Shown here: positions 7,891 to 10,396 of the stretch, one piece after another
How the letters are laid out: every line of letters starts with the position of its first letter
Numbering within the stretch: the first letter of the stretch is position 1
Assembly (NCBI RefSeq): GCF_900103475.1
Contig: NZ_FNHG01000001.1
Coordinates: forward strand, 62,001-126,000
Origin: Maricaulis salignorans
Lineage (GTDB): Bacteria; Pseudomonadota; Alphaproteobacteria; Caulobacterales; Maricaulaceae
DNA: 64,000 bases
Direction of reading: 5' to 3'
Program-made: the position numbers and the translations under genes
The notes under the pieces: model-generated
The model's database searches: none
Told to the model about the DNA's origin: nothing
What the model saw: only the letters and a program-made list of their open reading frames with translations

Positions 7891-8190
7891 ATGAAAACCC
7901 GTACCCCAAAGGCCAAAATTGCGGCCCTTGCCGCGTCCGCCTTCGCCCTTTCGCTGACCGCTGCTGTCGCCCACGCAGGGACTACGCAGAATGAGCCGCC
8001 AATGGAGCATTGCTATGGCGTCGCCCTGGCCGGTGAGAATGATTGCGCTGCGGGCCCGGGCACGACTTGCGCCGGGACTTCGACTGTCGATTATCAGGGC
8101 AATGCCTGGACCTCCGTCCCGGCCGGTACCTGCGTCGACATCGAGACGCCCTACGGCAATGGTTCGCTGACGCCTGTTGAACGCCCCTGA
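7891..8190 (+). CDS. bufA1: Bufferin precursor peptide BufA1 (DUF2282)
   Basis: The 99-residue precursor has a Sec signal peptide (residues 1-29, cleavage after AHA) and a core with four cysteines at 41, 52, 60 and 81 in the contexts [21 protein letters not shown] and GTCVDIE, ending SLTPVERP. This is the DUF2282 signature now known as bufferin-1. In Caulobacter these peptides are modified by a DUF692 enzyme, which converts central cysteines to 5-thiooxazoles, and the exported product chelates copper. The start ATG at 7891 follows CTGGAGACC. It heads a same-strand operon with the DUF692, DUF2063 and DoxX genes. Identity is well supported; metal specificity is inferred. Confidence 0.88.
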
Positions 8191-8251
8191 TTTCCACCAC
8201 TCCTGAATGCGCCGCCCTCCCCCGGGGTGCCGCATCGCGAGGCGAGGTCGC

Positions 8252-9106
8252 TTGTCCATCCCTGGAACGCCCCCTTCAGCAGGCCTTGGCCTGAAGCCGG
8301 AGCACTATCGCCCGGCCCTGGATGAACAGGCGGCCGGCCTGTGGTTCGAGGTTCATCCCGAGAACTACATGTCGGCCGGCGGCCCGCGGCTGAACTGGCT
8401 TGATGCTATCCGGGCGAAGGCGCCCGTCTCACTGCATGGTGTCGGCCTGTCGCTGGGCGGGCTGGAACCGCCCGATCCGGCTCATTTGCGGCGCTGGAAA
8501 GCCTTGCTCGACCGCTATGAGCCGGTGCGGATATCCGAACACCTTGCCTGGTCGGTTCATTCCGGCACCTATTTCAACGATCTTCTCCCCACCCCGATGA
8601 CACGCCTCGCGCTCGACCGTTTCTGTGAACATGTGGACGCGATGCAGTCGGCGCTGGGGCGTTCGGTCCTGATCGAAAACCCTTCGCGCTACTTGCCGAT
8701 GCGCGAAGAAATACCGGAAGCTGAATTTCTCGCCGAGACGGTCCGGCGCACCGGTTGCGGCCTCTTGCTCGACGTCAATAATCTGCATGTCAGCGCCCGT
8801 AATCTCGGTTTCGACATCACCGCCTGGCTCGACACGATCCCGGAAGACGCTGTTGGCGAACTCCACCTGGCCGGCCATGAGGCCGATGCGGAGCTGGGCG
8901 ATGAATTGCTGATCGACACCCATGGTGCGCCGGTCGCAGATCCGGTCTGGCGCCTGTATGAAGCCGTTATTGCCCGGCTCGGGCCGCGGCCGGTCTTGAT
9001 CGAGCGCGACAATAATATTCCCGCCTTTGGCGAATTGCTTGTCGAGCGCGAGCGGGCGCAGCGTGTGCTTGAGTGCGCACGCGCCGGAAAGTCTGCTCAT
9101 GTCTGA
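8252..9106 (+). CDS. bufB1: BufB1, DUF692 multinuclear iron oxidative enzyme (MNIO)
   Basis: This is a DUF692/MNIO TIM-barrel enzyme that acts in the cytoplasm on the precursor peptide before export. Conserved tracts are visible in order: AGLGLKPEHY, WFEVHPENYM, SLHGVGLSLGG, ISEHLAWS, LLPTPMT, LIENPSRY, GCGLLLDVNNLHVSA, ELHLAGHE, LIDTHGAPV and LIERDNNIP. They hold the His/Glu/Asp/Asn ligands expected to bind two or three iron ions. The TTG at 8252 is chosen (protein begins MSIPGTPPSAGLGL) because GCGAGG lies just upstream; an in-frame ATG at 8207 is the alternative. The stop overlaps the next start (ATGTCTGA). Confidence 0.9.
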   Translation: MSIPGTPPSAGLGLKPEHYRPALDEQAAGLWFEVHPENYMSAGGPRLNWLDAIRAKAPVSLHGVGLSLGGLEPPDPAHLRRWKALLDRYEPVRISEHLAWSVHSGTYFNDLLPTPMTRLALDRFCEHVDAMQSALGRSVLIENPSRYLPMREEIPEAEFLAETVRRTGCGLLLDVNNLHVSARNLGFDITAWLDTIPEDAVGELHLAGHEADAELGDELLIDTHGAPVADPVWRLYEAVIARLGPRPVLIERDNNIPAFGELLVERERAQRVLECARAGKSAHV

Positions 9107-9854
9107 CCGCTTTCATGACGAACTGGTCGCTGCGATTACGAGCGGCGAGGCGGCGGGGCTCGAGCCCTGGTTGACGACGCCCGCGGCGCTGCGGCGCATG
9201 GCGGTTTATCGCAATAATGTCGTTCACGGCATGATTGAAGTCCTGCGCGCCGCCTATCCGGTGGTCGAGCGGCTGGTCGGCGCTGGTTTCTTTGCGCCCA
9301 TGGCCAAGGCTTATTGGCAGGCAGTGCCGCCGACCGATCCCGTGATGAGTCATTATGGCGAGGCTTTCGCCGATTTCATTGACGGCTATGCCCCTTCCGC
9401 CGGGCTGGTTTATCTCGGCGATGTCGCGCGCCTCGACCGGGCCTGGCTTGAGGCCCACCACGCATCAGACGAGCCGGCCCTCGACGCCGGTCAGCTGGCA
9501 GGACTGGCACCGGAGGCATTGCCGCAACTGGCGCCGCGCCTGCACCCCTCGGTCCATCTGTGCACTTCGAACTGGCCGGCCTATGCGATCTGGCGCAGCA
9601 ATCGCGATGATGCCGAGCCGGCGCGTGTCGAGCTCAGGCCGGCACCGGACCATGCCCTTGTCTGGCGCCATCGCGGCACTGTGCGCCATCGCGCCCTGTC
9701 ATCGGCCGATCATGGCTTTCTGGCTGCGCTGGCGCAGGGGCAGACCCTGCAGGATGCGGCCCATGCCGCCGCATCGGTTGATGCCGGCCACAATGCCGCC
9801 GACCTGTTCGGTGAGGCCCTTGCCAGTTCAATCCTTGGAGGATCCCGCTCATGA
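9099..9854 (+). CDS. bufC1: BufC1, DUF2063 partner protein of the MNIO enzyme
   Basis: The 251-residue protein starts at the ATG overlapping the bufB1 stop by 8 bases, showing translational coupling. Its N-terminal half ([66 protein letters not shown]) matches the DUF2063 family. In other MNIO systems this family gives the recognition/partner subunit for the precursor peptide. The C-terminal half (from about residue 145) is less conserved. DUF2063 is often labelled putative DNA-binding, but no HTH is evident here and the operon position argues for a modification partner. Confidence 0.85.
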
Positions 9855-10396
9855 CGATCGCAGCGAGTATCAAGACCGCGCAGCACGCGCACCAACGCCT
9901 GATTGAGCTCGTGCAGCGCTATCTGGCCGGTGATGCTCTCAAACTCCTCGCCCGGTTGACGCTGGCGGGTGTGTTCTGGCGCTCGCTCCTGACCAAGGTG
10001 CAGACCGTTGGTGTCTTTCCCTATACCGAGATGATCAATGATTTCGCGGTGCAGCGTGCGTATCTGCGCCTGCCGGAATTCCCGCTCAGCCTGAAAGCGT
10101 CAACGCTGGCTTTGTTCGAGACTGAGTATGCCCTGCCGCTTCTCCCGATCGAGGTCGCGGCCTGGATGGCAACGCTGGCCGAATTCTCCCTTCCCATCCT
10201 GCTGGTGCTGGGTGTCATGACCCGATTGTCGGCGCTGGCCCTGCTGGGCATGACCGTGGTGATCCAGATCTTCGTCTATCCGGATGCCTGGTGGAGCACG
10301 CATGCCTTGTGGGTGGTGATGACGGCTTTTGTGGCCGGTTCTGGCCCCGGAAGACTCTCGGTCGATCATTGGGCCGGACGCTATTTCGCGCGTTAG
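9851..10396 (+). CDS. bufD1: BufD1, DoxX-family membrane protein
   Basis: This 181-residue DoxX-family inner-membrane protein has four membrane segments. Landmarks are [29 protein letters not shown] helix ends, [25 protein letters not shown] and [12 protein letters not shown] (the G-x-G-x-LS-D ending). The start ATG overlaps the bufC1 stop (ATGA). DoxX proteins are found in most bufferin operons, but their role there (electron transfer, export or redox homeostasis) is not settled. Confidence 0.82.

Follow-up and report, generated by a model that had tools for sequence, protein, structure and literature searches.

Bufferin precursors are known to be exported through the Sec pathway; in the Buf1 type the central cysteines are converted to thiooxazoles and the first and last cysteines form a disulfide, the bufferins chelate and sequester excess copper, and the genes stand in the order bufABC, usually with doxX (excerpts of PMC12452194). 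The oxazolin/captophorin clusters (HvfABC, FonABC) likewise combine an MNIO enzyme and a DUF2063 partner with a Cys-rich precursor, and a 5-thiooxazole product has been reported for them; for fontiphorin 4 H are lost per modified site, and bufferins are placed in the same thiooxazole class (excerpts of PMC13097082).

In Caulobacter, the Buf1 operon CC3254-CC3257 (CCNA_03363-03366) consists of DUF2282, DUF692, DUF2063 and DoxX genes in this order. It is SigF-dependent, with promoters of the form GTAACC-N16-CGAA, and SigF itself is restrained by NrsF (PMC3511200, in part). Under copper its four structural genes are upregulated by log2 values from 1.40 to 6.31, the lowest of which is flagged as weaker, and a sigF mutant is copper sensitive, with the SigF regulon holding further genes too (PMC8224329, in part).

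The window analysed here, a stretch of 64,000 nucleotides from Maricaulis salignorans, carries the same genes in the same order, together with two neighbours that matter for the discussion below:

6828-7718, plus strand: DUF1036 gene, resident on the other flank of the cassette (PF06282, 33.9 bits, and synteny)
7891-8190, plus strand: bufA, Buf1/DUF2282 bufferin precursor of 99 aa (PF10048, 85.6 bits, cut-off 22.4)
8207-9106, plus strand: bufB, MNIO enzyme (PF05114, 327.8 bits)
9099-9854, plus strand: bufC, DUF2063 partner protein with a C-terminal part predicted to be RRE-like (PF09836, 79.6 bits)
9851-10396, plus strand: bufD, DoxX-family membrane protein (PF07681, 49.6 bits)
10481-10909, plus strand: second DoxX-like gene, neighbour of bufD (BLASTP to BufD; below the Pfam DoxX cut-off)

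All four products of bufA-bufD exceed the gathering scores of their Pfam profiles, with E-values from 6.4e-13 to 5.8e-98, which is beyond chance, and the reading frames overlap at 9099-9106 (bufB/bufC) and 9851-9854 (bufC/bufD). The original prediction of a complete operon, with starts and stops overlapping from bufB to bufD, is thus confirmed by the four families and by the bufferin-maturase model discussed below. The start of bufB is ambiguous, either ATG at 8207 or TTG at 8252, the latter with GAGG just upstream when read by eye. The organism's own genome (G000, 3.1 Mb, 99.92% complete) contains one DUF2282 match and one MNIO match, and the named matches of BufA are, best first, from Maricaulis, Halomonas, Maricaulis and Maricaulis. 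In a scan of 151 loci (the window part plus L032-L181) a bufA-like reading frame was found in every locus, a bufB-like one in 144, a bufC-like one in 141 and a DoxX-like one in 137; gene order was inspected for the window, L111-L181 and three named loci, and the window has bufABC followed by doxX, as expected of a Buf1 operon. Gene content, order, family membership and the conserved residues given below are direct observations, as are the missing SigF/NrsF control genes and promoter, the common upstream element and the cassette-free sites of relatives described further on. We are highly confident that this is a Buf1 bufferin operon, predicted to make an exported, copper-binding thiooxazole peptide and lying as a cassette between resident genes without SigF/NrsF control. 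It is an ordinary member of the widespread bufferin family, and it is the control region that looks different from Caulobacter.

The precursor can be divided into three parts:

7891-7977, plus strand: presumed Sec signal peptide of BufA, 29 aa, ending in AHA, read from the translation
8011-8133, plus strand: four-cysteine core; the central cysteines are the expected thiooxazole sites and the outer ones the expected disulfide (spacing statistics and excerpts of PMC12452194)
8134-8187, plus strand: C-terminal tail of 18 residues, not unusual

By eye, the N-terminus looks like a signal peptide, with a charged start, a hydrophobic stretch and AHA/G. The four core cysteines C41, C52, C60 and C81, named in the original prediction, are present in the translation with the spacing C-x10-C-x7-C-x20-C (10-7-20), and the length of 99 aa compares with 93 aa for CC3254 and 105 aa for CC2907, the DUF2282 proteins of Caulobacter (PMC3511200, in part). 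With 24.9 bits (cut-off 60) and four cysteines, not six, BufA does not belong to the Buf2 precursor model NF050166, and it had no match up to E 1 among PDB sequences.

The same prediction took the segment after the last cysteine for an extension that sets this precursor apart from its family, and this part of it did not survive comparison, although the complete Buf1 operon did, with a copper/thiooxazole role as the best-supported one. A PF10048 search of 299 genomes from the order gave matches in 68 of them, at 76 places, 75 of which are besides the window. The 10-7-20 spacing is common to 62 of these 75 other proteins. At least 13 residues follow the last cysteine in 65, TPxGxGSL (as in the window BufA) occurs in 36, and GSL, beginning 9 or 10 residues past the last cysteine, in 47, so the tail has the usual form. 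A compact tail of 9-12 aa is found in a minority of 10 rows, all with a C2-C3 spacing of 6. Since the search patterns for a further 81 named-locus rows came partly from the window tail itself, those rows were left out of the tail count and only the 75 order rows are a fair sample. GSL is also invariant in an alignment of 27 hand-picked sequences, every one of them long-tailed, and the PF10048 model itself reaches into the tail (BufA residues 38-91 correspond to positions 1-51 of its 53). A new precursor type with an extended C-terminus is accordingly rejected; the supposedly unusual precursor is standard, and a false lead is removed.

Other precursor arrangements were seen among the scanned loci. 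L133, L144, L146 and L167 have two bufA genes in one cluster, with a compact tail and a C2-C3 spacing of 6. In G009 and G143 there is a second, stand-alone BufA (L119:4974-5516 and L123:4974-5528), with no bufB found within the 10-kb locus; it has a lipoprotein-like start (LMAC), a Met/Asp-rich stretch and then a full four-Cys Buf1 domain, and a membrane-tethered bufferin seems possible.

BufB and BufC look complete as enzyme and partner. BufB scores 361 bits with the NCBI bufferin-maturase model NF050167 (MNIO_BufB; cut-off 310), while its 219.9 bits with the HvfB family NF003818 stay below the cut-off of 360. Precursors of HvfABC and FonABC carry EGKCG repeats, and BufA, a DUF2282 protein, has none, so that neither precursor nor enzyme is of the oxazolin/HvfB kind. 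In 142 aligned sequences, the window included, eight BufB residues never vary (His77, His112, Glu157, Asp189, Asn192, His220, Asp237 and His239), and two more, Glu266 and Asp268, are conserved in 141. The same residues are present in the solved DUF692 chain 3bww, the best PDB sequence match of BufB, and we take the conserved His, Glu, Asp and Asn residues to be putative metal ligands.

An AlphaFold2 model of BufC (pLDDT 94.3, 39 sequences) had only three PDB fold matches at E of 0.001 or better, TglI (8hci_A, E 2.9e-5; 8hi7_A, E 3.8e-5) and NGO1945 (3dee, E 1.3e-4), both of which are named as MNIO partner proteins (PMC12452194, in part). BufC thereby has the composition of a PME type 1 partner (DUF2063 plus an RRE-type domain), with the RRE part predicted from the modelled fold; by sequence, the NGO1945 C-terminal domain scores 16.5 (cut-off 27), and the sole PDB sequence match is an unrelated kinase at E 0.56. 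BufC and BufD score below the NCBI cut-offs for HvfC (41.9 of 142) and HvfX (36.5 of 80), models which come from the related Hvf system. In L145 an extra bufB-bufC pair lies directly upstream of a full bufABCD set.

By analogy with the described bufferins, BufA would be synthesized with a Sec signal peptide and then presented, presumably by BufC, to BufB, which as an iron-dependent MNIO enzyme would convert the central Cys52 and Cys60 into 5-thiooxazoles. The outer Cys41 and Cys81 would form a disulfide, and after export the peptide would bind periplasmic copper; for BufD, a membrane protein of the DoxX type, any role is putative. A loss of 4 Da per cysteine pair had been anticipated as the signature of modification, and this has to be corrected, since 4 H are lost per modified cysteine (PMC13097082, in part); we infer that two thiooxazoles and one disulfide would mean about 10 H lost in all.

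Copper sequestration by cysteine-derived thiooxazoles, which had also been predicted, is the best-supported role, as judged from the protein families and from the chemistry in the excerpts of PMC12452194. It is conceivable that the intact operon serves another metal or stress (gold, silver, cadmium, oxidative stress) more than copper, as dichromate and cadmium elicit a response of the SigF-dependent buf genes in Caulobacter (PMC3511200, in part), and the gig cluster, a relative in Cupriavidus, responds not only to copper but also to gold and silver, with copper resistance there unaffected by gig (PMC8224329, in part). We consider this improbable, because sigF inactivation impairs growth with copper, unlike growth with chromate or cadmium, the Caulobacter operon is strongly upregulated under copper (PMC8224329, in part), and bufferins chelate excess copper (PMC12452194, in part). 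The copper phenotype of Caulobacter is that of a sigF mutant, whose regulon has other genes too, and sigF is reported to be dispensable for chromium or cadmium resistance (PMC3511200 and PMC8224329, in part), so a role in copper handling should not be extended to metals in general.

The difference from Caulobacter, with its sigF-nrsF pair and GTAACC-N16-CGAA promoters, lies in control: in the M. salignorans genome NrsF and a close SigF homologue are both lacking and bufA is not preceded by a SigF-type promoter motif, so the genome does not hold a SigF/NrsF-controlled operon of the Caulobacter type. NrsF (PF06532) was found in 104 of the 299 order genomes at E 0.001, with 103 over the cut-off, and was not found in the own genome. 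A SigF-like query from locus L032 gave 143-179 bits in three NrsF genomes and at most 61 bits in eight NrsF-less genomes tested, with a value of 46 for the own genome. In a set of 67 bufA genomes that excludes the own one, a SigF motif lies before the bufA core in 33 of the 37 with NrsF and in none of the 30 without, counted in a 360-bp stretch with one mismatch allowed, a spacer of 15-17 and kinship uncorrected; the exact motif gives 16 of 37 and 0 of 30. With both of these proteins absent from the own genome, copper induction is not simply transferable from Caulobacter. NrsF, the SigF partner in the control described for Caulobacter, is lacking in 30 of the 67 bufA genomes sampled. A sigma-70 promoter/terminator scan showed nothing promoter-like before bufA. 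Among the 10 papers listed of 31 in a literature search, none combines Maricaulis with DUF2282, which does not prove this difference in control to be new to the literature; the main text of PMC12452194 makes no mention of Maricaulis.

Comparison within the genus suggests how this may have come about. Locally the order is LytTR, DUF1036, bufABCD, the second DoxX-like gene, ORF11045 (a family of unknown function) and ORF14142. Locus L032 of Maricaulis sp. IN14 shares the LytTR, DUF1036 and bufABCD neighbourhood, with a BufA 72% identical, but it differs in having NrsF-like and SigF-like genes (read from translations), divergent from bufA and lying between DUF1036 and bufA, along with a SigF-type promoter (GTAACG form); unlike in the window, no second DoxX-like gene was found in the locus. 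A cassette-free site with the DoxX-like gene and its downstream neighbours is present in six genus genomes (G049, G068, G108, G138, G153 and G054), with DUF1036 beside it in five of them and not detected in G049. Five of the six lack a DUF2282 match; the exception, G054, has a SigF-type buf operon located elsewhere. Genome G306, of another genus, has DUF1036 and a DoxX-like gene without buf genes and with no ORF11045 match. Most simply, this would be an optional cassette, and several lineages would have lost its SigF/NrsF part. As the Maricaulis rows form no single supported group in a BufB tree of 34 rows chosen from loci, one or several promoter changes are both compatible with these data.

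The second DoxX-like gene, a distant reading frame which the original prediction had missed, encodes a protein with 32% BLASTP identity to BufD over 84 columns (E 2e-7); a fold search with a DoxX-like model had 9h9e_B as its best hit, at E 0.83, and nothing at E 0.001 or better. Its homology to BufD and its position on the same strand after bufD, kept in 6 of 7 bufA-bearing genus genomes of the order sample (own included), would suit a fifth functional gene of the bufferin operon. This we find unlikely, since the gene stands with the same downstream neighbours at the cassette-free site of the six genus genomes, five of them without DUF2282, and in G054 it occupies that site while the buf operon lies elsewhere. 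In 79 genomes of the family, 23 match it at E 1e-5, some weakly; all eight genus genomes among them match strongly, including G049, G068 and G108, which are without DUF2282. Because it is found at genus sites and in genomes without bufA, the five-gene operon was dropped; the gene is most plausibly a resident neighbour that did not originate with the bufferin genes, and its linkage to buf may be only positional. Further downstream, 11045-14095 encodes in tandem two related proteins (531 and 440 aa) for which no Pfam family is listed up to E 10. The first of them (ORF11045) is matched in all 19 genus genomes searched.

As for what replaces SigF, one candidate site was found upstream of the operon:

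7762-7795, plus strand: AACG-N5-GTGA-N16-CGTGA, a candidate site for a regulator, with its start 129 bp upstream of the bufA ATG

The general form MACR-N5-GTKA-N15/16-CGTKA, a pattern written after the upstream sequences had been seen, is common to eight NrsF-less genomes (G000, G088, G098, G118, G183, G188, G009 and G143), in all of which it begins 124-129 bp before the chosen bufA start. It is absent from all seven cassette-free stretches (the six of the genus and G306). The N16 form, searched in G000, G088, G098 and G188, hits the buf site once in each, with one further place in G088, so that it is a single match in the own 3.1-Mb genome; as the reversed N16 pattern gave 0, 2, 1 and 0 matches in these four genomes, about one chance match per genome is expected and the absence of other sites is unremarkable. 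The N15 form, extended by TTGG, was searched in five genomes. In G118, G183, G009 and G143 its sole match is the buf site, G000 has no match, and the control gave none either. A MAFFT alignment of 12 upstream regions was uninformative overall, with no word of 7-9 bases common to at least six sequences.

In five of the eight genomes the element lies among TNACR words 10-12 bp apart, that is, in 11-bp-phased repeats. The eight sequences hold 14 phased TNACR pairs, whereas 2000 single-base shuffles gave 0.07 on average and never more than 2. Phased direct repeats are typical of OmpR/PhoB-type response regulators, and the element is a candidate binding site for a regulator. A reading in which the likeness is due to chance or shared ancestry, with an ordinary promoter and no dedicated regulator, is nevertheless quite conceivable, if short of probable: the pattern is post hoc and its reversed control finds matches too, 23 of 31 NrsF-less bufA genomes lack it, the window copy is the weakest, with only one phased pair, a number that 7 of 200 shuffles also attained, and no such pair is present in L118 or L124. 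Against it stand the position 124-129 bp before the chosen ATG in all eight genomes and the count over 34 NrsF-less bufA genes, which have 25 phased pairs where 2.6 are expected, 11 of the 25 lying outside the eight source genomes; the 42 bufA genes of NrsF genomes have 5 where 2.8 are expected.

We propose, tentatively, a dedicated regulator: the Maricaulis cassette may be an optional module between DUF1036 and the resident DoxX-like gene which, after loss of SigF/NrsF, came under another regulator, OmpR/PhoB-like and probably binding 11-bp-phased direct repeats. If true, a large minority of the bufferin operons of the order (30 of the 67 bufA genomes sampled) would be under the control of regulators that have yet to be named, and the eight genomes sharing the element point to where the replacement may bind; the identity of the regulator would reveal which signal these operons really answer to.

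Among the known regulators, UzcR was rejected because its published site, CATTAC-N6-TTAA (PMC8963506, in part), is unlike the element. PhoB was considered too and set aside. The LytTR gene of the window was rejected as well, as its relatives occur near loci of both promoter types and thus lend it no support; it encodes a membrane-type regulator on the minus strand at 5428-6168 and recurs at the site with or without the buf cassette. In four loci, not including the window, the gene just before bufA (L112:3612-4754, L113:5406-6635, L116:3607-4752 and L118:3275-4726) is presumably a PhoD-like phosphatase, to judge by its motifs.
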